Shown: piece by piece, positions 5,965 through 33,224 of the stretch
Layout of the letters: each line of letters opens with the position of its first letter
How positions within the stretch are numbered: position 1 is the first letter of the stretch
Source: Candidatus Paraprochloron terpiosi LD05
GTDB lineage: Bacteria > Cyanobacteriota > Cyanobacteriia > Cyanobacteriales > Prochloraceae
Direction: 5' to 3'
Length of the DNA stretch: 64,000 nt
Assembly: GCA_018141785.1 (NCBI GenBank)
Contig: CP073341.1
Span: forward strand, 186,001 to 250,000
The notes under the pieces: generated by a model
The model's input: the letters and a program-made list of their open reading frames with translations, nothing else
The model's database searches: none
Told to the model about the DNA's origin: nothing
Program-made: the position numbers and the translations under genes

Positions 5965-6016
5965 ATAAAGTAACAGTGTATTTTACTATAGCAAAAGAAA
6001 AAAATTTGTCTAAAAA

Positions 6017-17290: not shown

Positions 17291-20200
17291 GTTCGGGTCG
17301 AAGGAGTGGTCGCCCACCCCAGCTCCCTTTCAGAACCGTGCGTGAGACTTTCACCTCACACGGCTCCTATGACCTGTGGATTGAAACCTACCGCAAAGGG
17401 CATAAAATCCGTTGATTGCCTCTATCTAGTTTGGTGCGTCAGGTTGTGGCAATCTTTGCCTGTCCTATCCAGCATCAGTTTTACTGGTTCTTACTCGGTT
17501 TTACAGGAACCTGAGTTTGAAAATGATTCCTACTCGGCTGTCGTCTTACCCAGACCTCAAATTCGGAACTAGGTTATCCTCTCATCCGTGTCTCCACGGT
17601 GGTATACAGCATATTTTCAGCCTAGGCGTCACCTTTTTGGATAGAAATTAGCTCCAACACATTGCGGGCAATTGTTTAGCATCGTGGCTTTCGTTCCCGC
17701 GTCCTATCCGAATGGTCTCGATAGAGGTATGTCTGCCCTCCCTCTCCGGGTACCACCCCGCTTAGAAAGAACCATTCGTTTTTCCTCGTTCCAAATCAGA
17801 AATTGTTCCGAATCTTTAGGTCTCACCACTTCGCCTACCGACCCCCTAGGAATGCTGCTATCCTATGCAAAACGCAGCAGGGTTTTGGTTATCGGTTCTT
17901 GTTGCCCATTAAGGAGGTCTCCCCCCAAACTAAACGCTGTACTCCTACAAATTAGACGCTTTTTCCGGTGAGTGCGTACCTATTGTCGAGATAGGTAGAC
18001 CCTTACAGGTTTTCCCCCTCACAGTACCGGGCGTGCAAGTTTCCAAGCACCCGGCTCCTGGTGTATCATCTTACTTGCTGGCGCGTTTACTCCTCATTTC
18101 TGACATCGGCTTTCAGGTCTCATCCAAATTGGGCTTTGAGTCCTTAAATTCCAACCTCCTCTCCATTGACGTTTGCCCTACGCCTCTAACTTATAAGGAG
18201 CATTGAGTTTCAAGTTCCAATTTTCGGATTACAAATCCTCTTGCGTTCGGATTTGCAGTTACGTTTCACCCTCTCCTACGTCAGCCTATCTGCTGGGTTA
18301 TTGATTCCCCTGAACTTTCGTCCTAGCAGCATTCGCTTTTTAGGAGAGTCCTTTCTCCCCAGGGAGTTGGTACAGATTACTCCTTTCCTACTGGTCGAGA
18401 CCAGACCCTGTGGAGGTTAACTCGTTCCACAATAGTTAGATACGTCTGACGGCGGGCTGCTCTATACCCCGGCGGTGAGGTGTCTACATGATGACCCTAG
18501 AAGTCCATCTTTCTCATATACCGCATACCGTTTTGGTTAGAGTGTTTCAGTTGGGCTTTCACTCTTCCAGGTTAACGAGGCTGCAAGCTTCGCTTTATGC
18601 TCACCATATCAGACTTTCCCTAGGCCGCTACCACCATCGGACTAATAGTAACTTAGCCATTTAACCCTCTAGCTGTGAAACCTCCTCATTACTGTTGAGG
18701 CTCCTTCGGGCGGGAACCGGGGAAGACACTCCCCATGGGGCTTTCACCCACTAATTACTGCGACTTTCGAGCCGCACTCTAGGATACCTGTTGACCATGG
18801 ATTCTCCGGCATTAGGCAGGGTCACTTTCGTGTCTGATTCCGCCCTGTTCCCAGCTTCACGCCCCGGAGACTAACCCCTATCGCCTGCTTGAATTCACAG
18901 TTGCGTGTGGGCAGATAGAGATTCGCTTATCCCCTAAGCGGTTGGACTTGGAAGACTGATTGCTGACCAGCTCCTCACCAACATTCCTGATTTAGTTGTC
19001 AAGGTACAAAATACCTAGCCTGGGGTTATGTCATTTGGCTATTAAGCCGCGACTTTTCGCCCAGAACGAGTCGCCCACATAGTGTTGCAGTTTCGGGTCT
19101 GTTACAGGGCCGAAAGAAGGACGACAAGACTCTAAATCCATGAATTTTCGCACCTCTTCATTGCAAAGTTCAGCAGCGCGATTAATTGCCTCTTGCAGGG
19201 TCAACTGATACTCCTGCTGGAGCACTAAGACTAGGTTGTGAACGTCTCTTCGCTTCATTTCAATTTCCAGACCGATAATATCGTTGGACCAGGAAATAAC
19301 ATTGTTAGCTATCATTAGAGTCGAGGGAGATGTTACCACCTCGCCCCTCTCCTACGAACTGTACGTGAGACTTTCACCTCATACAGCTCAGGTGCTTCTA
19401 ACGGCGCTTTTGCGAGAGTCCATCCTTAATACGCTTGCGATGTATTGCTTGCGCCTGGTGACATTCTCGATGGAGAGCAACCAGGTTCTTACGTTTCCAG
19501 TTGTTATGGTTGCCATCTATGTGATGCAATTCCACGGCACCATCCATCTCCATGAACTTTCGGTTGCAATGCAACCTGCTCAGGCGCGGCTGCGCAGGAG
19601 CAGGCATTTGCCCTTCTGTCGTTTAATGGCGTCGGCGGTTGGGCCACTATATAGCTTGGAATTCCGACCGACCCAATAGGTTAAGTTCCCATCGAAGGGT
19701 GAGGCATCACCTTTGACCATCACGTGTTTATTGACTTTCCTGGGAACTGCTGGGAAAGCTTTCTTTATCTGCTCTGATGTGAGCGCGCGAGGCGCGCTCC
19801 TAAGGGTTTACCCTTGATAGCCAGACGTCTTGCTTTCTCAGCTTCCTTAATCGCCATCCTGCGTTTTTCAGCCCTCAATTTACGCCAAACCCAGTGATTG
19901 AGCGACCATAGTGAGTGCTTGCTCATATCGCAGTTTGTGTGATACTGCCTCCAGCCTCGGACTTGTGACTCTATCCTTTTCAGGCGAGCTTCCGTGGTTG
20001 CACCACTTCTCCAAGTAGCTTTAACCTTGGCCTTTATGTCTGCATAATTCTCCCAACTCGGTGTAGATTTGAAGACTCCACGGGAGTTGACACGGAAGTG
20101 CCACCCCAAGAAGTCGAACCCATCCGTAGCTTTCCTCACCTTAGTCTTAGTTTCGTTAATTCTTAGCCCTCTGGACTTCAGAAATTCGTCGATATCCTCC

Positions 20201-22269
20201 CGTAACCGTTGGATGTCGGTTTCTGGTTTACAGATAAAGACCGCGTCATCTGCGTAACGAATACCCCTTATTGACGGTCTTGACCGTTGTCTTTTCCATT
20301 GGTCTGACCCTAGGTTCTCAAATCCATCTAGGGCGATATTGGCCAGTAGTGGCGAGATAACCCCGCCTTGAGGTGTGCCCTTAATACTGGAGGGATATTC
20401 ACCACGGACGCCCGCCTTTATTGCTATCCTGAGTCCCTTTAAGGCTTCGGTTGGTAAGACTGCTTTCTTGAGCATTACCTGGTGGTCTATCTCGTCAAAG
20501 CATTTGCTGATATCTGTTTCCAGAATCCACTTGTCTTTGCCATTTACTTGGCTCTTTAGGTTGTCGAAAATTAGCTTTTGTGCGTCCGCAGTACAGCGAC
20601 CGGGTCTGAAGCCGTAGCTCCTTTCTCCGGCAGTTGCCTCATAGGCAGGCTCGGCTGCTAACTTGAGCAATGCTTGCCACGCCCGGTCGGCCATTGTCGG
20701 GATGCCTAATCCCCTTGTCTTACCGTTAGGCTTGGGGATATTTACCCTTCTCAGTTGCTGGTGTTTCCAGTGGTACCAGTGCTTATTCAGCCTTTGACAC
20801 AACACTAGACGCTCTCTGGTGGAGAGTGCTATTTTCCCATCAACTCCGGGGGACTTACGCCCTGTATTTAACTGTGTTACTTGTTTGACGGCCCCCGGCA
20901 TCCTCGATGGCGGGGGCTAAGTGGAGTTTCAAGGCTTTCAGACTGCGGTATTCGATTGAAGCCTGTTTAGTGATATTCACAGTTTTGACCTCATTAATCG
21001 CTCTGATAATTACATTGGGTCTCTTCTCTGTAGAAACCATCAGGCAGTTACGCCCTCTCTTACCCTCGCTTTTCCGATAGGCCGTTAATCAGACGATCCC
21101 ACCACTTTCCGTGGAAGTTAAGCGAGTTTTTACTCGTTGGGAAAGAACTATTGCTACGAACCCTTGGGACTCATCCATTGACCTATCACCAACTCAGGAA
21201 TGCAGGTTGCTGAGACTGGACTTGCGAGTTTCTTTCGGTGTTTCTTCTGTCGTCTGTAACGGCCTTCCGACAGTGTCAAAACTTAGGTCTTTTCTCAGAT
21301 GATTCACGTTAAGTTATCCCGGTGTTCTCCCTGTTAGCGGAAGTATCTCTGCCTAACCGTTTGGCCGCACTTTACCGCCCTGCTGCCAGCTTCTGCCTGG
21401 TGATTAACCTCACAGTGGCCAGATAAGGATTCACGTGATTCCCTCACGGGAGGGGCTTTCACCCTCATAGTTCATTCAGTTGTCAAGGTTCGGTAGTCCT
21501 ATATAGGAATCGTTTTGTCCGTTTTCAGCCCCTTTCGGGTAGCTTAGATTATCGGAGACGCTGTCCCGGAACCCTGCTCCTGCTTATGTTTGGCTTACGC
21601 CGCGACTTTCACAGGAAACGAGCCGCACAGCCTCAGTTTTTGCACAGTCTTGTTGGCTCTGACTTGGTTTGGTAGCTCCATTTCCTTGTTGACTTCAATT
21701 TCAATCCAGTCAAAACAGAGATAAGCTGTAGTCAGAAAAGGGCGCATTTTGAGATAGGTTGCCAAATCTGGTGTAATTCCCTGGGTGTGGTTAGCAGCTT
21801 GCCAGACCAATGCTTGCAGGTAGTCCTTCATATTGCTGGTAAAACGGTCCATCCACCCTGAACTTGCATGGGGTTCCACTCTCTGTCTAATATCTGCCAA
21901 TGCCTGCACTAGGGGAGCATCTCCGTGAGTAGGCTTTTCCCCCCGCAAAATGGCTAGTGACCGACTATGTAGAGCGGGCATCAGCTCATCTTGCTTGTTA
22001 ATTCCCAAGTCTTCGCAATAGTCATCGAAGATAAACAGCCAGGTGTAAAAGTTAGCAATAATCTGAAAGATTTCAGGTGAAGCATGGGGGCGGGTACGGG
22101 CTGACATTCTGGGAAATTGTGCTGCCCGGAAACGACGGTAGGCTGATTCATCCGGGAGAAGATGGAAGCGACGTACCCATTTATTGGTTTGCTCCTGGGC
22201 AGTGGCAACATTCTGATGAATTGCTCCAGGAAAGGGACAATATAGGGGGGGTATTTTGATGTTTTCCAT
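17203..22269 (-). CDS. class I terpene synthase, three exons split by group II introns (join 22269-21629, 19313-19077, 17290-17203)
   Basis: Removing introns A and B at the boundaries set by comparison with their relatives leaves 966 bases coding for 321 residues in one frame. Exon 1 carries the metal-binding motif FDDYCED (about residues 80-86). Exons 1 and 2 join within a Leu codon to give KLRL-IANNVISWSNDIIGLEIE, which contains the second metal motif NDxx(G)xxxE. Exons 2 and 3 join within a Val codon to give LQHYV-LGLRSWMRGYIDW, then the C-terminal RY pair in ETERY. This is the complete domain order of bacterial sesquiterpene-type cyclases, which ionise and cyclise a prenyl diphosphate. 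The ATG at 22269 is chosen over the TTG just before it. The Ser of the NSE motif is Gly here. The product is unknown. If splicing fails, no active enzyme is made. It lies 32 bases after a TpsA-like gene on the same strand. Confidence 0.85.
17291..19076 (-). mobile_element. group II intron B (outer, ORF-less), host of a nested intron
   Basis: On the minus strand it opens GGGCGACTCGTTC at 19076, aligned with GTGCGACTCG of intron D, and closes with a clear domain V (GAGCCGTGTGAGG...CACGCACGGTTC, 17366-17333), domain VI and TTCGACCCGAAC at 17291. That end lies six bases after CGAC, as in introns A and E. It interrupts the terpene synthase between exons 2 and 3 and is itself interrupted by intron C at 18777-17985. 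No maturase frame is present. The first bases are GGGCG, not the GUGYG consensus; a start two bases earlier (GTGGG) would pair with a 3' end one base later and also keep frame. Confidence 0.8.
17985..18777 (-). mobile_element. group II intron C (ORF-less, about 793 nt), nested inside intron B
   Basis: Opens GTGCGGCTCGAAAG at 18777 and closes with domain V GAGCCGGGTGCTTGG near 18060 and TCTACCTATCTCGAC at 17985. It is nearly co-linear with intron D. Outside it, intron B sequence resumes on both sides, giving a twintron: C would have to be removed before B can fold and splice. Confidence 0.85.
19077..19313 (-). CDS. terpene synthase exon 2
   Basis: Codes for IANNVISWSNDIIGLEIEMK and then RRDVHNLVLVLQQEYQLT through to PKLQHYV. 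It contains the NSE-type magnesium motif, followed by RRDVHN, which is highly typical of bacterial terpene synthases. An apparent ORF of 102 codons covering it extends into intron sequence at both ends and is an artefact. Confidence 0.85.
19398..21040 (-). pseudogene. decayed group II intron reverse transcriptase/maturase of intron A
   Basis: Against the intact copy in intron E, three pieces remain. An N-terminal piece (21040 to about 20918) reads VKTVNIT...IEYRSLKALKLHLA. It is joined by a GC palindrome to an RT core (about 20890-19806), with YADDAV, GTPQGGVISPLL and GYFLGW-like motifs, after loss of about 180 bases. The RT core then runs into a second palindrome and shifts frame to a stop at 19765. 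The HNH endonuclease piece (19607-19398; ELHHIDGNHNNW, HRECHQAQAI) is cut off by a third palindrome. The RT centre itself still looks intact, but no full-length protein is possible. Confidence 0.85.
20891..20917. repeat. GC-rich palindromic repeat, copy 1
   Basis: GCCCCCGGCATC, a CTC loop, then GATGGCGGGGGC: a 12-bp near-perfect hairpin. It replaces part of the maturase ORF of intron A. Related copies are at 48258-48283 and 50191-50215. Confidence 0.8.
21629..22269 (-). CDS. terpene synthase exon 1
   Basis: Codes for the N-terminal 213 residues plus two bases. IPPLYCPFPGAIHQNV and WLFIFDDYCEDLGI are characteristic of cyanobacterial terpene synthases; FDDYCED is the DDxxD-type metal site. The apparent extra ten residues to a stop at 21595 are intron sequence. 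Confidence 0.9.
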
Positions 22270-22301
22270 CAACTTTTTCTTAATTTTTGCCTAAATGTAC
22301 A

Positions 22302-24848
22302 TTATTTTTCAAATTTACTATGAAACTTTGGCAGACAGGTTTCAGATGAGGTAGGAACATTAGTACGATTAGGCATACTCGCTACCAACTCTATGGTACC
22401 ATCCTCATGGATAACCCAGCCTGTAGCCCGTATTATGGGAGTCGGCAGAGGCTTAACCAATTCGCTGACAGGGGGAAATTTACCCCGAGGTAACGATTCT
22501 TCAGGAAGTTCGGTAAAGTCCCGTAAATCTACCAAAACTCTTGACTGGCTGCGGATGGGTTCCGTGGGGTTTTCTGCTAAGCCACCTCGTCCGATATTGG
22601 TAAAAGAGCTACCCTCAGCCGCAGCACAGCTGGCGATTATTTGGTCGGCGGGGTCTGGCAACTGTTCTTGTAATTGCAATAATCCCGAAGTGGGGTCCAC
22701 TTCCGGGTTGTTAATGTTGACAACGCCATCCACTCCCAGCTGGGAACTAGCGGTGATGGAACTATCGGGGGAGGTAAAAATCCCTTGGGCAGTAAGGTCA
22801 ATATTGCCTCCATTTCCTAAAAAGGCGTTGGCGCTAAGAGAGCTACCCTCCAGGAGTACTAAGGTGTTGGTGTTAATAGTAATGTTGCCGCCATTCCCCC
22901 TTTGCCCTGCTTCAGCTTCAATTTTGCTGTTATTTCTCACTTGCAGGCTGTCGGTCACTTCCAGGTTAATTTCCCCTCCGTCACCGGAAATGGTAGCAGC
23001 AGTGATGCCACTTTCCCTATCCAGGAAGATAGAATCGGCATTGATAGTCAGTTCCCCAGCATCTCCCGTGCCGTCATTTCTGACATTGATGAGAGCACCA
23101 TCCCCTACTTTCAGGATAGGAGTAGTAATAAAAAGGTTGCCCGAGTTTCCAGAAGGCACTGGGGGTGCGTTGATTATTGCCCGGAAAGCTGGATCAATAA
23201 TATTGGCACTTGAGATGATGAGACTGGGATTCACCGATCCAGACACGGTACCGGTCACTTCTACAAACTCGGTAGCATTGATAGTAACGCTCCCGGCACC
23301 GCCAGCAGCTAAAGTGGAAGAGTCCACCCTGCCCCCATTTGCAATTATCAGCCTTCCGGTGTGGATGTTTAAGGAACCCGCATCACCAGCGCCAACAGTT
23401 GAAGAACTCAAAACGCTTGGCTGAAGATTGGTTGGTTCCACTCCTATTACTTCTATAGAATCAGCGTTAACTGTCACAGTTCCCCCAGAACCAGTCCCCA
23501 AGGTTGTAGATGCCATTCTGGCTCCATTTTTGATGGTCAACCGCTCCGTTGTCACATTGATATTCCCCGCCTTCCCCTTCATAAAAGAAAAAGCGTTAAT
23601 GCGGCTGGTCAAAACGGGATTAGCGGTATCGAAGCCCTCTAATTGGATTGTACCGGGAACCTCTAAAATGATATTGCCCCCAAATGGCCTGGTGTTATCT
23701 TCTGGGAGCATATCCATTCCGGGAGTATCTTGCTCCAAGATACCGAAGACTGTGGAGACGGCACCCCCACGCCTGACCTGCAATTCTGGGGTGGAAATAC
23801 GAATATCACCGCCATTTCCATTTTCCAGAGCATGATTATAGAAGCCGCTGCCAATTTCTCCATCGGTGCCAGTCACTGTGACAGACTCGGAAGCATTAAC
23901 TTGGATCGCACCAGATTCTGGTTTCTCTTCGTTGAGAATCAAGAATAGAGAGCCATCCTCTACTTTTAAAGTTGCTCCCTGTACTGTGATGGCTCCCGGA
24001 CCTGCATTTACTAATGCCTTGTTCAGGAGCTGAATATCTTGGAAATTTGACCCATCTTGATAGTCAAAAGTCCAGCCCGAGGTGGTATTCTTCAGCCGAA
24101 CGGAACCGGAACCAACGCTGCCTAACTCAACCCTTCCCGACTCTGCTGTGAGAATGGCGCCGTCTAAGGTAACATTCCCTCCAATTAAAGCTAGGGTTTT
24201 CCCTGGTTTCACTTCTAAACCAGAATTGGTCCCAAAATCGCTCTTCTCTCTATTAATGATGGAAAATGCTGGATTGTCCGGAACAATAAAATGTCCCTTA
24301 TCTTGTACGTGAATGGTTCCTGGGTTATCAAATTGCAGACCAATAGGTACGTTAATAGTAAGCAAAGGAGGAGTATTGGGTTTGGTAGCGTCGAAACTGC
24401 CATTTTCCAAGATGAGTCGGTCAGCAGTACTGCCTAAAAAAGAACCGCCAATATCTAGTCGGGCATTGGGACCAAAGATTATGCCACTGGGATTGAGAAA
24501 ATAGAGGTTTGCGGTACCATTAGCACTTAGGGTTCCGTCAATGTGGGATATTTTGCCTCCCGTAACCCGGGTAATAATATTTTGAATCGCCAGGGAGTTG
24601 TTGAAATGGGCTTCCATACCAATGGGTAGAGAGAATTCCCGAAAACTGTGGAAGAGATTGACTCCTACTGCAGTTCCCTGTTCAATGGTGAAGGTGTTAC
24701 CATTCTTGGTAACATGAGAATTAGTAGGTAGTGTGCTATCGGAAGCAACTTGAGCTACAATGGGTTGAGAAGGTATGCCTATACTTAGCAGTACTAAAGT
24801 CATGAGGTTTTTTATTAAGCGCCAAGAACTGGGTAATTTTTTCTTCAT
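22302..24848 (-). CDS. TpsA-like secreted exoprotein (filamentous haemagglutinin N-terminal domain)
   Basis: 848 residues from ATG at 24848 (MKKKLPSSWRLIKNLMTLVL, signal peptide ending near VAQ). The TPS secretion domain follows with NLFHSFREFSLP, NLYFLNPSGIIFGPNA and IGGSFLGSTADR, then many beta-helix turns of the type GNGGNITINT. The C-terminus has IIASCAAAEGSSFTNIGRGG, common in cyanobacterial members. Such proteins cross the outer membrane through a TpsB (ShlB/FhaC) pore; none is visible in the window. Divergent from the CHAT-protein gene. Confidence 0.9.
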   Translation of the reverse strand: MKKKLPSSWRLIKNLMTLVLLSIGIPSQPIVAQVASDSTLPTNSHVTKNGNTFTIEQGTAVGVNLFHSFREFSLPIGMEAHFNNSLAIQNIITRVTGGKISHIDGTLSANGTANLYFLNPSGIIFGPNARLDIGGSFLGSTADRLILENGSFDATKPNTPPLLTINVPIGLQFDNPGTIHVQDKGHFIVPDNPAFSIINREKSDFGTNSGLEVKPGKTLALIGGNVTLDGAILTAESGRVELGSVGSGSVRLKNTTSGWTFDYQDGSNFQDIQLLNKALVNAGPGAITVQGATLKVEDGSLFLILNEEKPESGAIQVNASESVTVTGTDGEIGSGFYNHALENGNGGDIRISTPELQVRRGGAVSTVFGILEQDTPGMDMLPEDNTRPFGGNIILEVPGTIQLEGFDTANPVLTSRINAFSFMKGKAGNINVTTERLTIKNGARMASTTLGTGSGGTVTVNADSIEVIGVEPTNLQPSVLSSSTVGAGDAGSLNIHTGRLIIANGGRVDSSTLAAGGAGSVTINATEFVEVTGTVSGSVNPSLIISSANIIDPAFRAIINAPPVPSGNSGNLFITTPILKVGDGALINVRNDGTGDAGELTINADSIFLDRESGITAATISGDGGEINLEVTDSLQVRNNSKIEAEAGQRGNGGNITINTNTLVLLEGSSLSANAFLGNGGNIDLTAQGIFTSPDSSITASSQLGVDGVVNINNPEVDPTSGLLQLQEQLPDPADQIIASCAAAEGSSFTNIGRGGLAENPTEPIRSQSRVLVDLRDFTELPEESLPRGKFPPVSELVKPLPTPIIRATGWVIHEDGTIELVASMPNRTNVPTSSETCLPKFHSKFEK

Positions 24849-24905
24849 GATAACGTTCGCAGCAGTGCGATGTTTTTGGTTAATTATAACTATTTTTGCA
24901 AGCAA

Positions 24906-25072
24906 GAAATGTATGATAAGTTACAATTATGAGATAACAGTTAGAGTATTTCTAAACTTAGGAGAAGCAAAATCCAATAGTCAATAAAAAATAACAAGAT
25001 TGAACAAATATTATTGTTAACATAAGTTGCGTATACAAATACATGTTAATAATATATGGCTAATAATCTATT
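24906..25072. promoter_or_regulatory. shared divergent promoter region of tpsA-like and CHAT genes
   Basis: AT-rich 167-225 base gap between two divergent gene starts. Promoters for both must lie here, but individual boxes cannot be assigned with confidence. Confidence 0.4.
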
Positions 25073-27646
25073 ATGAGAAGTAGATCTGGATTTATAAAAA
25101 GTGTTTGGTTACGTTTTGCTTGCTGCTTTTCCCTAACCCTGATAGTACTAACCGTGGTACCAACAGTTGCCCAGGACAGAATCTCAGTTCAAGTACCAAC
25201 AGAACTGTTACAAAGAGGAAGAGAAAACTACGAACAGTCGAGGTTTTTTGCAGCTGCTAATCTCTGGGAACAGGCAGCTGCAGCTTATGAAAAAAGGGGA
25301 GACATTTATCACCAAGTACAAGCTCTGAACTATCTCTCTTTAGCTTATCAAGAGTTGGGAGAGTGGTCTTCCTCAGAAGAGGCGATCGCCTCTTCTATGA
25401 CTCTATTAGAGAGTTTAGGGAAACTAGAGGGCAGGGAAGTGCTGCTTCTGGCTCAAGCTTTAAATACACGAGGGAGTCTGGAACTAAAAAAGGGACAAAC
25501 AGAAGCAGCTGAGATGACTTGGTCCCAAGCAGCAGAGATATACGATCGCGGGAATGATATAACTGGAGCACAGAGCGCCCGCATTAACCAAGCCAGAGCC
25601 CTACAAACTCTAGGGCAGTATCCACAGTCAAAATCTCTGTTGGAGGGTGTGTCAGAGGAGCTTGCCAGTCAACCAGATAGCCTACTCAAAGCCCGTAGTT
25701 TGCGAATGTTGGCCATTGCATTCCAAACCATCGACGATGTGAGGGACGTCGAAGAAATTTTAGAGCAAAGTTTGGCAATTAGCCGCCAATTTAATGCCTC
25801 CGCAGAGACCAGCGCTACTCTCTTCACTCTGGGCAATATTGCGAGAAACAGAAGGCAAGATAACATTGCCTTAGATTACTATCGTAGAGCAGAGAAGATG
25901 GCACAAGACCCCATCGCCATTATCCAAAGCCAACTCAACCAACTTAATCTTTTGGTGCAAATGCCAACAGTGCCAAATGTAATCCCTTTAGTCAATGAAA
26001 TAACCTCAAAATTATCTAAACTCCCCCCAACTCGACCTTCCATTTACGCAAAAATCAATCTAGCAGAAAGCCTGATGAAGTATGAAGCCAAAAGCCTCCG
26101 AGCTAGGAAACCGGATCCATTAAATTTTCAACTTCAGACTTTAGAATTGTTAGCAAGTGCTGTGTCCCAAGCAAGAGAATTGCAAGATTTCGTAGGAGAA
26201 GCTTACGCTCTCAATCAACTGGGAAAGCTCTACGGGAAAAGTCAGCAATGGAAAGAAGCCCAAAGTCTTACCCGCAGAGCGCTAGACATTGGTCAATCAA
26301 TTGATGCTGGGGAGATAACGGCTCATGCTGCTTCCCAACTGGGTAGAATTCTCAAAAAGGAGGGAAAAATTCAGGATTCGCTTGCTGCTTATCAAACTGC
26401 CTTCACCGCCTTTCAATCTCTCCGCAGTGAGTTGGTTGCCATTAATCGGGAGTTGCAGTATGACTTCCAAGAGAGCGTGGAACCAGCTTATCGAGAATTG
26501 CTGGATTTGCTCTTACAACCCGATGCAACACCTGAAGACCTCAAAAAAGCTCGTGAAGTGATAGAAGCCTTGCAATTGGCAGAATTAGATAATTTCTTTG
26601 GGAATGCTTGTCTGAAGAGTGAATCGGTAGACATTGATAGTATAGATCGGTCAACGGCGGTGATCCATTCCATTATTTTGCCAGATCGCCTGGAAGTAAT
26701 TATTTCCCTGCCAAATCTACCCCTGCGCCACTACTTTAAGAAGTTGCCCCAAAGGGAAGTGAAAGCTGTTTTGCGGCAACTGAAGGGTTCTTTTGATCTT
26801 GGTTATAACCGCCAGCAAAGGTTACACTGGTCAGAGGAAGTTTATAACTGGCTGATTCGCCCCGCCGAAGCTGATTTAGCTAAAAACGACATCAAAAACC
26901 TCCTATTCGTATCAGATGGACCCTTGCGTGAATTGCCTCTACCTGCTCTTTATGACGGCAAGCAGTATCTGGTGGAAAAATACAGCAGTGCAGTGAGCCC
27001 GGGATTACAATTATTTCCCCAAGAACTTGCAAAAGAGAAACTGAAAGTTTTGATAGGTGGTTTAAGCGAAGCTCGTCACGGCTTTCCTCCCCTACCGGGA
27101 GTGGAGCCAGAAGTAAAAGCAATTATTGACCAATGGGAGGGGTTGGTGTTGCTCAACCAGAAGTTTACCACCTCTAACTTACTTCATGCCATCGATACCC
27201 AACCCTTTCCAGTGGTTCACCTGGCTACCCACGGTCAATTTAGTTCTAACCCAGAAGAAACATTTCTCTTGACTTGGGACGAGCGTCTCTCAGTAGAAGA
27301 TTTCGGTCTTTTGTTTGAAAGCAGGAAATTCGGCGGACTACCCCCCATCGATCTGTTGGTGATGAGCGCCTGCTCTACTGCTGCGGGAGATAACCGCGCT
27401 AGCTTGGGGTTAGCGGGGTTGGCCTTGCGATCGGGTGCTCGCAGTACTCTGGGCAGTCTGTGGGACGTTAATGACGAGTCTACAGCTGTCCTGATGAAGG
27501 AATTTTATCGCCTGCTTGCCTCACATGATGGCTCCATGAGTAAGGCAGAAGTTTTCCGTCAAGCACAACTAGTCCTGTTGCAGGATAGCCAATATGGTCA
27601 TCCTTTTTTTTGGGCTCCTTTTGTCTTAGTTGGCAATTGGCTCTAA
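25073..27646 (+). CDS. secreted TPR-CHAT domain protein (caspase-like peptidase fold)
   Basis: 857 residues: signal peptide (MRSRSGFIKSVWLRFACC...VAQ), then about eight TPR-like helix pairs (residues 40-470), then a CHAT domain. The predicted His is in PVVHLATHGQF and the predicted Cys in LLVMSACSTAAGDN, followed by LGLAGLALRSGARSTLGSLW. CHAT proteins are caspase relatives used in defence or proteolytic signalling. In cyanobacteria this secreted TPR-CHAT type is often found beside TpsA-like genes, as here. The substrate is unknown. Confidence 0.88.
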   Translation: MRSRSGFIKSVWLRFACCFSLTLIVLTVVPTVAQDRISVQVPTELLQRGRENYEQSRFFAAANLWEQAAAAYEKRGDIYHQVQALNYLSLAYQELGEWSSSEEAIASSMTLLESLGKLEGREVLLLAQALNTRGSLELKKGQTEAAEMTWSQAAEIYDRGNDITGAQSARINQARALQTLGQYPQSKSLLEGVSEELASQPDSLLKARSLRMLAIAFQTIDDVRDVEEILEQSLAISRQFNASAETSATLFTLGNIARNRRQDNIALDYYRRAEKMAQDPIAIIQSQLNQLNLLVQMPTVPNVIPLVNEITSKLSKLPPTRPSIYAKINLAESLMKYEAKSLRARKPDPLNFQLQTLELLASAVSQARELQDFVGEAYALNQLGKLYGKSQQWKEAQSLTRRALDIGQSIDAGEITAHAASQLGRILKKEGKIQDSLAAYQTAFTAFQSLRSELVAINRELQYDFQESVEPAYRELLDLLLQPDATPEDLKKAREVIEALQLAELDNFFGNACLKSESVDIDSIDRSTAVIHSIILPDRLEVIISLPNLPLRHYFKKLPQREVKAVLRQLKGSFDLGYNRQQRLHWSEEVYNWLIRPAEADLAKNDIKNLLFVSDGPLRELPLPALYDGKQYLVEKYSSAVSPGLQLFPQELAKEKLKVLIGGLSEARHGFPPLPGVEPEVKAIIDQWEGLVLLNQKFTTSNLLHAIDTQPFPVVHLATHGQFSSNPEETFLLTWDERLSVEDFGLLFESRKFGGLPPIDLLVMSACSTAAGDNRASLGLAGLALRSGARSTLGSLWDVNDESTAVLMKEFYRLLASHDGSMSKAEVFRQAQLVLLQDSQYGHPFFWAPFVLVGNWL

Positions 27647-29664: not shown

Positions 29665-30924
29665 ATGACTAAGATATATCACGGTCATGTTTGGGGTTCC
29701 CGGAAAGATAAATTTCGCTATCTTCTAGAGAACGATATAAACACCGTTGAGTGGACAGAATTAAATCCTCAAGCACCATTTTATCTCTTCATTCCTTTTG
29801 ATACGAAGTTCCTCCCAGAATATGAGACAGGTTGGAAAATTACAGATATAATGCCTGTTAATGTTTTAGGTTTTCAAACCCATAGAGATAGTTTTGCCAT
29901 AGATTTTGAAAAAGAAAAAATCTATAAACGTATTGCAGAAATGCGCAATAATAGGATTTCTGATGAAGAATATTATCGAAAATATAATATTAAAGATAAT
30001 CGAGATTGGAAATTAAAAGAAGCACGTCAAGTAATTAAAAATGATAGTAAATGGGAAAAGAAATTAATTACTTGTTTATATCGTCCTTTTGATTGGCGTT
30101 ATTGCTATTTTAGTAAAGTAGCAATGGATTATCCTAGAACTGAATTAATGAATCATGTTGCTGGTAAAGAGAATTTAGTTTTAAATTTACCCAGAATAAT
30201 TAAATTAGAAGAATGGAGACACGCTTTAGTAGCTCATGTACCATCTGCTGCAATTTCCATTGATATTAATGGATCATATGTTATCCCCCTATACCTTTAT
30301 CCTAACACCCAAAACCAACAAAGCAGCTTGTTTGTGGAAAAATCCCCCAACCTCTCCTCAGACTTCCTCAGTGCAATTAAAACCAAATTAGGCTACATAC
30401 CCACCCCTGAAGCCATATTCTACTACATATACGCCATCTTTCATAGCCCCACCTATCGCCAACGTTACGCCCAATTTCTCAAAATAGACTTTCCCCGGGT
30501 ACCCCTAACAAGTAATAACCAGCTATTTAAAGATTTAGGAACAAAGGGGAAAGAATTGGTAGACCTGCACCTAATGAAATCCAAGAAACTCAACAAGCTC
30601 ATTACCAAAATGGGCGGTGAAGGAGATAACGCTGTTACCAAAATAACCTATAATTGCGTAAGCAACCGCGTTAGCGTCCCTGAGCAACAGCGGGTTTACA
30701 TTAATAAAACTAGCTATTTTGAAGGTATTGCCCCAGAAGTGTGGGAATTTAAGATTGGGGGTTATCAGGTATTAGATAAATGGCTGAAAGACCGCAAGAA
30801 AGCCAAACGTAGCTTATCCTTTGATGATATGTTACATTATCAAAAGGTGGTGGTTGCTCTGAAGGAAACCATAGAACTTATGAGAGAGATAGATGGGCTT
30901 ATTCCGGGTTTCCCTATTGAGTAA
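29665..30924 (+). pseudogene. C-terminal fragment of a Type ISP restriction-modification enzyme
   Basis: 419 residues matching only the C-terminal target-recognition region of Type ISP enzymes, single-chain helicase-nuclease-methyltransferases. The start KIYHGHVWGSRKDKF, DINTVEWTELNPQAPFYLF, MPVNVLGFQTHRDSF and LYRPFDWRYCYF are all typical. The nuclease, helicase and methyltransferase parts (roughly 1,000 or more residues) are absent upstream, where Ycf23-like DUF561 lies instead. No good ribosome site precedes the ATG. Probably a remnant left by a deletion; a stand-alone specificity subunit is possible but unlikely. Confidence 0.7.
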
Positions 30925-31454: not shown

Positions 31455-33224
31455 TCAACGCTTTCTTTCTGTAACCGAGAATTGCCAGCCTGTTTCTGCA
31501 CTCAAAACCTTAGCAAAATTTTGCGCTTCGTCAATATTGCTGAAACTCGCTACTTGGGTATTACCATCTTTTCTCAGAAAAGCATCACCACAGTAACGCT
31601 CCTTTATAGTATTGCGGGAATTTTTTGGACCCACTACAGCATACCAGGTTGAACCACTTCTTTTGAGAGAACCACAGGAAGAACGGTAGGATAAACTGCT
31701 GCTAACTGAACGCTTTCTTTCTGTAACCGAGAATTGTAAGCCCGTTTCTGCACTCAAAACGTTAGCAAAATTTTGTGCTTGGTTAATATTGCTGAAACTA
31801 GCGACTTGAGAATAGCCATCTTTTCTCACAAAAGCATCACCACAGTAACGCTTTTTTATAGTATTGTGGGAATTTTTTGGACCTACTACAGCATACCAAG
31901 TTGTATCACTTCTTTTGAGAGAACCACAGGAAGAACGATAGGATAAACCGCTGCTAGGTGGTTGTTGGACAACAACTGTTCTTTGTTTATTTTCTGCTTC
32001 TCGACGCTTCCTTTCTGCTTCTCGACGCTTCCTTTCTGCTTCTCGACGCTTCCTTTCTGCTTCTCGACGCTTCCTTTCTGCTGCTGCTGCCTGTTGTCTT
32101 GCTATTTCTGCCTCCTCTTCCCCTTTTTTTTTATCTGCTTCTGCTTGCTTAAGTTCCTCATCTCGTTGTTTTTGTTCTTCCTCTAGTCTAGCTAATTCTG
32201 CTTGAAACTGTTGTTGTTGCTCCAACATATAATAGCCAATAGCACCGCCCCCTCCGAGAAGCAAGATGGCAATACTGACGGGAATGAAAGTTTTTGTCCA
32301 AGGAGAAGAACTTAATGTAGTTGTTGCTGGGGGTTGACTCACCCGAGTTGGAGGAGTAATAGTATTATTTATTGGTATAGCAGGATGATAAGCTGGGTTG
32401 GAAGATGGTAAAGCATCTAACATCTCCTTAGCAGTGCGATAACGCTCCCGAGGATGACTTTGAATCGCTTTATTAATCACAGCAGCAAAACCAGGACTAA
32501 CACCAGGAGCAAACTCTTGCCAAGCTAGTTCTCCTGTATAGGGATCCGTAGTTAAGTCTTGAGGTATTTTACCTGTCATGAGGTAAATAGCGGTGAGGGC
32601 TAAAGCATAAAGGTCGCTCGCAAAAACTGGTCTCCCGGCGGTTTGTTCGGCGGGCATAAAGCCTGGGGTACCAATGACAATGGAAGATTTGACTGTATTT
32701 CCTCCCTGGGATACAGTGGTTTGCATGGTTTCTTTCACTGCACCAAAGTCTATTAGTACGGGTAAATCATCCAGGCGGCGTAGAATAATATTTTCTGGTT
32801 TAATATCTCGGTGAACAATGCCCTGACTGTGAACGTAATTTAAGATTTGTAAAATATTAACTAGAATCTTGCTAACAGTACTTTCCCCCTCTACTCCTTG
32901 GGTTTGTAACCGTCGGGCTAAGGTATCCCCTTCAATATACTCCTGAACTAGGTAAAATTGTCCCCCGGATTCAAAATAGGCATAGAGAGTGGGTATTTGC
33001 TGGCTATTGTTACCCAGTGCTTCTAAAACCGCTGCTTCCCGCTGAAATCTCTGTTTGACTAACTGGTAAACCTGGGAACTTTCGTTCATCGGTTTCAGTT
33101 GTTTAATCACACAGCGTCTACGAGAGGGTATATGAGTATCTTCAGCGATGAAGGTTTTCCCAAAACCCCCATCTCCTAATTCTTGGAGAATTTGATAGCG
33201 ATTTTCCAGCATTCTGTTCATCAT
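31455..33224 (-). CDS. membrane Ser/Thr protein kinase with SPOR-like C-terminal repeats
   Basis: 589 residues: eukaryote-like kinase domain (about 1-270) with GDGGFGKTF, HRDIKPENI and VLIDFGAVKE; a membrane helix (FIPVSIAILLLGGGGAIGYY, about 313-333); a charged coiled-coil with tandem KRREAER units (31992-32085, 21-base repeats); then two ~80-residue repeats with RSSCGSLKRS, TWYAVVGPKNS and ASFSNINEAQNFA, which resemble SPOR peptidoglycan-binding folds. An outside sensor and inside kinase arrangement is inferred. Its ATGATG start overlaps the deacetylase stop by 4 bases, so the two are coupled. A third repeat lies after the stop. Confidence 0.9.
   Translation of the reverse strand: MMNRMLENRYQILQELGDGGFGKTFIAEDTHIPSRRRCVIKQLKPMNESSQVYQLVKQRFQREAAVLEALGNNSQQIPTLYAYFESGGQFYLVQEYIEGDTLARRLQTQGVEGESTVSKILVNILQILNYVHSQGIVHRDIKPENIILRRLDDLPVLIDFGAVKETMQTTVSQGGNTVKSSIVIGTPGFMPAEQTAGRPVFASDLYALALTAIYLMTGKIPQDLTTDPYTGELAWQEFAPGVSPGFAAVINKAIQSHPRERYRTAKEMLDALPSSNPAYHPAIPINNTITPPTRVSQPPATTTLSSSPWTKTFIPVSIAILLLGGGGAIGYYMLEQQQQFQAELARLEEEQKQRDEELKQAEADKKKGEEEAEIARQQAAAAERKRREAERKRREAERKRREAERKRREAENKQRTVVVQQPPSSGLSYRSSCGSLKRSDTTWYAVVGPKNSHNTIKKRYCGDAFVRKDGYSQVASFSNINQAQNFANVLSAETGLQFSVTERKRSVSSSLSYRSSCGSLKRSGSTWYAVVGPKNSRNTIKERYCGDAFLRKDGNTQVASFSNIDEAQNFAKVLSAETGWQFSVTERKR
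31992..32085 (-). repeat. 21-bp tandem repeat encoding KRREAER
   Basis: Four to five near-identical units of CTTTCTGCTTCTCGACGCTT plus one base (plus-strand view), in frame within the kinase linker. Copy number is likely to vary between strains by slippage. Confidence 0.85.

Follow-up and report, generated by a model that had tools for sequence, protein, structure and literature searches.

The cysteine protease LapG, a Peptidase_C93 (PF06035), forms an adhesin release pair with LapA. To our knowledge, the substrates of CHAT proteins are mostly unknown, and HMW1 systems have no CHAT partner. For two-partner secretion (TPS), the accessible parts of the review literature describe LapG acting on CdrA, a precedent for release, a C-terminal disulphide anchor that holds HMW1 and HxuA in TpsB, and maturation protease genes that appear outside TPS operons (PMC5422565, PMC8151025). 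Here we analyse a divergent gene pair of the cyanobacterium Candidatus Paraprochloron terpiosi LD05, encoding a TPS exoprotein (TpsA) and an exported TPR-CHAT protein, in a 64,000-nucleotide stretch (hereafter, the window) that spans C1:186001-250000 of its 3.84-Mb single-contig genome. We are close to certain that the TPR-CHAT protein and the C-terminal domain of the TpsA are functionally coupled, and slightly favour a dedicated exoprotein–protease couple, in which the CHAT protein would release or mature the TpsA via that domain. We found no paper on CHAT with TPS or haemagglutinin in a search that left most subscription journals outside, and none among the matches listed was titled on the pairing.

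The job proposed here would be like that of LapG with LapA or CdrA, namely periplasmic release of an adhesin. Unlike LapG, the candidate protease consists of a CHAT domain and a TPR superhelix, and PF06035 had no match in the genome, while one control genome matched. In contrast to the maturation proteases of the review literature, as far as its accessible parts describe them, the CHAT gene here often lies inside the TPS cluster. The TpsA resembles HMW1 and HxuA in having a C-terminal cysteine pair and otherwise almost no cysteines, but in the window protein 97 residues separate the two, and a hairpin and a conserved GRGG segment occur in this interval. Csx29 of the type III-E CRISPR system (Craspase) shares the order of TPR followed by CHAT and the fold, by the top Foldseek and VIA matches, and the kind of His-Cys dyad, judging from the accessible text of PMC10028731; identity is about 12% in the top two matches and, unlike Csx29, the protein here is exported, has a TPS exoprotein as partner and is not bound to Cas7-11. 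No Cas7-11 occurred among the nearby open reading frames (ORFs) given to Pfam, no genome-wide search having been made. HetF is likewise a cyanobacterial putative protease with CHAT and TPR, but its CHAT domain falls in residues 1-555, and it also has a transmembrane segment besides the TPR; it is a divisome component, and the accessible text of its description (PMC8406250) contains no link to TPS. Finally, TPS–CHAT fusions, described below as class B, likewise join a TPS exoprotein to a C-terminal CHAT domain, but lack both the two-cysteine domain and the TPR part of the family studied here.

Linkage, co-inheritance and co-variation

An earlier note on this stretch, made from its letters alone, had proposed that TPS and CHAT genes pair recurrently in cyanobacteria, and had named a neighbourhood survey as one check. 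We surveyed the own genome and 29 relatives, with TPS matches in 29 of the 30 and CHAT matches, abundant at 0 to 55 per genome, also in 29. From 21 of the 29 relatives we took 80 TPS-centred stretches around the best-scoring TPS matches, picked after the CHAT matches were known and covering part of the listed TPS places in G010, G025 and G028; 51 of them had full flanks, with 8 kb on either side. CHAT was detected with profiles built in this analysis, and 20 control stretches were placed by hand on the same contigs. A CHAT domain lay within 8 kb at 35/51 TPS loci with full flanks, where CHAT density predicts 3.2, and 16 of 18 genomes had at least one TPS locus with CHAT nearby. A single control stretch (1/20) gave a CHAT match, a partial one. 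With short-flank loci included, 54 of 95 TPS genes had CHAT within 8 kb. Viewed from the other side, a TPS gene lay within 8 kb at 35 of the 44 named CHAT-centred loci with full flanks (50/80 overall); these loci, all 80 cyanobacterial, were the best 80 of 573 relatives, chosen by likeness to the TPR-CHAT family alignment (A1), which was itself drawn from linked pairs. The two counts reject chance pairing, and the linkage that the earlier note had anticipated is thus present, far above chance.

The arrangement varies. Among the 52 TPS genes of the 51 full-flank loci, CHAT was downstream in the same direction in 22, fused in 7, divergent, as in the window, in 4, convergent in 2, upstream in 1 and absent in 16. 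Tandem TpsA arrays occur at L035 and at G102:C3:4225807-4240811, with at least five TPS matches each; at L035, five adjoin a single CHAT gene.

Co-occurrence narrows the partner to one part of the TpsA. We searched 146 genomes of the phylum, at least 95% complete, with the A1 profile and with a profile of the TpsA C-terminal domain (A2). Other CHAT proteins score close to the A1 cut-off of 1e-100 (up to 7.8e-98; 4.4e-100, 326 bits; database sizes differ), and a gap among the best A1 matches, from 339 bits to at least 772, supports it after the fact. The C-terminal domain was present in 42/146 genomes and the A1 family in 43, including all 42, each of which had a best A1 match of at least 772 bits. 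The odd genome, G114, had a partial match of 339 bits, near what other CHAT proteins reach (326 bits at most), and no TPS match. At E 1e-30 or better, TPS was matched in fifty genomes: 42 with both families and eight (G015, G016, G087, G104, G159, G096, G100 and G143) with neither. TPS exoproteins in general are therefore rejected as the CHAT partner, since the eight strong-TPS genomes without the domain also lack the CHAT family. The pairing that the earlier note had drawn between CHAT and TPS stands as a linkage, in a narrower form: the partner is the two-cysteine C-terminal domain. Within genera g8, g13, g32 (G114 aside) and g47 the two families are present or absent together, and at genus level each occurs in 31 of 74. 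Counting genomes as independent overstates the significance of this co-occurrence. Over the 42 genomes, gene counts of the two families correlate with a Spearman coefficient of 0.87 (a CHAT count of 6 meaning at least 6).

Sequence co-variation points to the same domain. The pair set comprised 87 pairs, including the frameshifted L013. Seven of these, L013 included, lacked a recognised C-terminal segment and were set aside; of the remaining 80, 78 entered the final run once second CHAT genes of the same TpsA had been removed. In these 78 pairs, CHAT distances correlated with those of the C-terminal domain at r 0.57 and with those of the TPS domain at r 0.27, a difference of 0.30 (bootstrap, 0.16 to 0.45; 0/2000 permutations), while the two TpsA ends tracked each other at 0.25 only. 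The TPR part with the C-terminal domain reached 0.65-0.67, and the helix stretch just ahead of that domain correlated with the CHAT protein's parts at 0.35-0.49 only. With the TPS domain controlled for, the partial r over 80 pairs was 0.53, a value that 0/2000 permutations reached. When partners were shuffled within those groups that held several pairs (33 pairs, 13 groups, named loci labelled by locus and not by organism), the counts were 67/3000 for the C-terminal domain and 1292/3000 for the TPS domain. That CHAT lies close to the 3' end of the TpsA gene does not by itself explain the co-variation, as 20 pairs in other gene orders (9 with CHAT upstream, 6 divergent and 5 convergent) rank alike: 0.76 for the C-terminal domain, 0.60 for the helix and 0.44 for the TPS domain. 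With the co-occurrence in 42/146 genomes, this co-variation supports a functional coupling of the CHAT protein and the exoprotein, one part of the earlier suggestion that the CHAT protein may process or sense the exoprotein.

The two proteins of the window

The features of the locus, by window position, are as follows.

22302-24848, minus strand: TpsA-like exoprotein (ORF; PF05860; TIGR01901 adhes_NPXG; sister-genome orthologue 81% identical)
23997-24755, minus strand: TPS secretion domain, residues 51-303 of the TTG-started frame (PF05860, E 3.6e-59)
22335-22754, minus strand: TpsA C-terminal domain (alignment A2), with the cysteine pair and GRGG segment (alignment; no Pfam match)
22626-22628 and 22335-22337, minus strand: cysteine codons of the TpsA C-terminal domain (alignment A2)
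24849-25072, no strand: divergent intergenic region, 224 bp (sequence)
25073-27646, plus strand: exported TPR-CHAT protein, family A1 (ORF; TPR_12 and CHAT; alignment A1; model mean pLDDT 85.3)
25073-25171, plus strand: signal-peptide-like N terminus of the CHAT protein (hydropathy; model helix 7-27, then low-confidence 28-38)
25190-26512, plus strand: TPR superhelix, about residues 40-480 (Pfam; structure model and fold matches)
26609-26611, plus strand: Cys513 codon, after the motif LQLAELDNFF (Cys in 80/85 aligned proteins)
26834-27637, plus strand: CHAT domain, residues 588-855 (PF12770)
27230-27232, plus strand: putative catalytic His720 codon (alignment and CHAT motifs)
27371-27373, plus strand: putative catalytic Cys767 codon (alignment and CHAT motifs)

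Both ORFs are present, with PF05860 matched in one and TPR_12 and CHAT in the other, as expected from the earlier reading of a TPS exoprotein gene divergent from a TPR-CHAT gene. The TpsA reading frame (22302-24905, minus strand) is open up to a TTG at 24905; the ATG at 24846-24848 was taken as the start, and is the likelier one because a signal-peptide-like stretch begins directly after it. The N terminus before the TPS domain is signal-like as read from the sequence, and the NPXG-type filamentous haemagglutinin N-terminal motif (TIGR01901) was matched at E 3.1e-24.

The ~140-residue tail carries one cysteine, then the GRGG segment, then a second cysteine near its end, and in most proteins of this kind a tryptophan-containing hairpin; Pfam gave no match for it. 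In the A2 alignment of 69 sequences the first cysteine is invariant and the second is conserved in at least 90%, and exactly two cysteines occur past residue 60 in 73 of 76 partner TpsA proteins (ORFs up to 1700 aa). Cleavage at an invariant GR was considered as well and rejected, because the Arg of GRGG varies and only GG is invariant.

The partner protein matches CHAT (PF12770) at E 1.1e-56 and 192.9 bits, against a curated cut-off of 24, and TPR_12 at 74.1 bits, against 30.1; NCBIfam and PADLOC returned weak matches at most. Its N terminus, MRSRSGFIKSVWLRFACCFSLTLIVLTVVPTVAQ, looks like a Sec signal peptide on inspection and in its hydropathy, no dedicated predictor having been used, in keeping with the signal peptide that the earlier note had assigned to it. 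A permissive scan found a signal-like N terminus in 39/40 standalone CHAT genes of the TPS-centred loci and window. Such a signal as the hallmark of TPS-linked CHAT proteins is rejected, as many CHAT proteins away from TPS genes are also signal-like.

His720 and Cys767, which we take to be catalytic from the alignment and from CHAT motifs, are intact in the window protein, and the dyad is kept in 84/84 standalone proteins of the alignment, the frameshifted L013 excepted. Cys767 is found in 84/85 rows of the family alignment and Cys513 in 80/85. A strict pattern for the motif ahead of Cys513 matched 69/85 family members and 0/22 other CHAT ORFs; a looser one separated them poorly (81/85 and 14/22). 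The structure model is confident (mean pLDDT 85.3), and its best fold matches (Foldseek, VIA) include Csx29/TPR-CHAT of Craspase (8eey_B, E 2.1e-13; 7y84_C, Z 29.7, rmsd 15.8, 536 aligned) and separase (9hma, E 3.8e-13). A fold in common with Csx29 and separase, as modelled, does not prove protease activity. Another CHAT gene of the genome (L016, C1:1901812-1902229) is broken by a stop or frame change and apparently decayed.

Fusions and the TpsB partner

The window belongs to the larger pattern that we call class A, a TpsA with a two-cysteine tail and often a separate exported TPR-CHAT protein (A1) nearby. In class B, TPS, linker and CHAT form one chain. None of ten class B proteins tested (0/10) matched A2, and class B matches A1 from profile position 502 onward only (4.4e-100 at best), so that the TPR part is absent; the linkers inspected were proline-rich or collagen-like. 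TPS–CHAT fusions were found in 7 of 20 loci picked by top CHAT score.

The own genome holds just two PF05860 matches, the window and C1:3081891. The TPS gene at C1:3081891 adjoins a TpsB and runs via a collagen-like repeat towards CHAT, so both TPS genes of the genome are tied to CHAT, in two ways. This own class B gene (L013:1772-8294) has about 190 collagen-like GXX triplets, and its CHAT domain lacks both dyad residues (HLATQ, SAS). The reading frame of the repeat shifts once, near 5990, perhaps through slippage, decay or a mistake in the assembly.

Class A proteins are occasionally fused as well. G120 and G128 each have one ORF (L218, L219; 1630-1638 aa) that encodes the TPS domain, the C-terminal domain and TPR-CHAT, with the TPR following the C-terminal domain without a break. 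A third fusion, L086 in G024, has TPS and CHAT by Pfam and matches A2 at E 1.3e-33 and A1 at E 3.7e-297. All three keep the cysteine before GRGG/GKGG, Cys513 and Cys767, and have lost the terminal TpsA cysteine. In L026:9580-14994, L034:9567-13919 and L051:9495-13922, TpsA and TpsB form a single ORF, followed by a CHAT gene; the joint is the two-cysteine domain (A2 E 9.9e-32 or better).

No TpsB with POTRA_2 and ShlB stands beside the window TpsA, although such a neighbour is usual for a TpsA and not strictly required. The 64-kb window holds zero ShlB/TpsB matches, as the earlier note had read it, and that note's corollary, export via a distant TpsB, has a good candidate. Two clear TpsB matches lie far off in the genome, and a further one sits at the cut-off of 22.7 bits, scoring 22.9. 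One of the clear matches, C1:2393827, is 90% identical to a TpsB of G002, a genome of the same genus, where it lies on the same 9.3-kb contig as the 81% identical orthologue of the window TpsA. Among the 33 TpsB proteins compared, those that rank next (49-55%) are mostly from class A clusters. For the TpsB that adjoins the own class B gene, the nearest sequence (57%) likewise adjoins a TPS–CHAT fusion. By these sequence comparisons the C1:2393827 TpsB is likely the cognate of the window TpsA, and from the identity and the shared contig in G002 we infer that a rearrangement probably parted the window TpsA from its TpsB neighbour. Elsewhere a TpsB neighbour does occur: in the relatives, 23 of 95 TPS genes have one within 8 kb.

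Proposed function and competing explanations

We propose that the TpsA is exported by Sec and then threaded through its unlinked TpsB, where it would be held by the two-cysteine C-terminal domain remaining in the periplasm. The TPR-CHAT protein, also exported by Sec to the periplasm, would recognise this domain with its TPR superhelix, and the His-Cys dyad of CHAT would cut in or beside it, so that the exoprotein is released or matured at the surface. Taken together, the signal peptide, co-inheritance, co-variation and occasional fusion with the tail make a dedicated processing or release protease the simplest reading; that the CHAT protein in fact cleaves the TpsA has, in our estimate, a little better than an even chance. 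More tentatively, the TPR-CHAT protein might be a third TPS partner, a secreted sheddase of the separase/caspase fold that reads the disulphide-tethered TpsA tail, possibly trapped via Cys513, and times adhesin release; in lineages where substrate and protease are merged, the product could release itself. By co-occurrence, to which one borderline match is the sole exception in 146 genomes, one exported CHAT family gains a predicted substrate, down to a domain of ~140 residues, opening a concrete test of how filamentous and mat-forming cyanobacteria might shed surface proteins, and, if true, caspase-like proteases would be placed in the control of bacterial adhesins.

Several observations weigh against this proposal. 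The A1 and A2 profiles were built from linked pairs, and 7 of the 42 genomes are among their sources. The within-genome shuffle is modestly significant (67/3000, 33 pairs), while a within-genome-only Mantel test was not significant (30-36 comparisons; 595 and 1438 of 2000 shuffles as high). In the six divergent pairs, the arrangement of the window, the TPS domain (0.70) and the C-terminal domain (0.72) are level. The pairing is also not strictly one to one, because TpsA and CHAT genes lie on different contigs in G116 and G091, CHAT is absent within 8 kb at both full-flank loci (2/2) in each of G008 and G020, and in many genomes such TpsA genes outnumber the CHAT genes. As for the substrate, a disulphide in the window TpsA is a guess because its cysteines are so far apart (97 residues), no obvious cut site is seen in the C-terminal domain (GG alone is invariant in GRGG), and the model of the isolated domain is poor (mean pLDDT 64.8), its one confident part being the hairpin around residues 132-144.

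Part of the evidence would suit a partner that does not cut. The TPR-CHAT protein could be a periplasmic chaperone, plug or anchor that holds the C-terminal end of the TpsA, and Cys513 might form a mixed disulphide with it. In favour of this, co-variation is strongest with the TPR part, Cys513 is nearly fixed (80/85), the strict motif before it sets the family apart (69/85 against 0/22 other CHAT ORFs) and the three fusions keep one TpsA cysteine and Cys513 while losing the terminal TpsA cysteine. We regard this as unlikely, as a pure scaffold would not need the dyad, which is kept in 84/84.

A signalling protease is rather less likely still. An event at the exoprotein would pass to the C-terminal domain and activate CHAT against another periplasmic target, much as Csx29, the closest fold match, is allosterically activated via its TPR part and cuts Csx30, according to the accessible text of PMC10028731. 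The presence of several TpsA per CHAT gene in many genomes would fit such a role, but we know of no third gene tied to the pair, no survey for one having been made.

A role for CHAT in a contact-dependent or polymorphic toxin system, either as the toxin delivered or as a domain that processes toxins, seems improbable, and would be most plausible for the TPS–CHAT fusion class, where CHAT is C-terminal; caspase-like domains serve as releasing peptidases or toxins in polymorphic toxins, in the accessible text of PMC3482391. The window CHAT, however, is a separate full-length protein of a conserved family, and no candidate immunity gene adjoins it among ORFs of at least 100 aa. Set beside the toxin criterion of a variable C-terminal toxin with an immunity gene (looked for in that same size range), the TpsA tail is a conserved domain in 42 genomes.

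Shared neighbourhood ancestry or genome size without joint function is the least credible explanation, and very improbable: both families are commoner in large genomes and gene order is common to related genomes, but within four genera they come and go jointly, the co-occurrence follows the C-terminal domain and not TPS, co-variation holds in the 20 pairs with other gene orders, fusions exist, and none of the 146 genomes has one family only, bar the borderline match. The dedicated exoprotein–protease couple remains the reading that we prefer.

Elsewhere in the window, a terpene synthase gene (19031-22272, minus strand; PF19086 at 21595-22272) is apparently interrupted by a group II intron, with Rfam RF00029 at 19314-19391 (minus strand) and a reverse transcriptase ORF at 19765-20901; by eye, the ORF at 19031-19339 resembles the missing C-terminal part of the synthase. 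A 419-aa ORF at 29665-30924 (plus strand) looks like a remnant: it has a match to the specificity domain that Type ISP restriction enzymes carry at their C terminus, and of longer restriction enzyme models it covers only the last part. Further on, 31455-33224 (minus strand) encodes a serine/threonine kinase with a charged coiled stretch and, by eye, two near-alike C-terminal repeats of ~75 residues.

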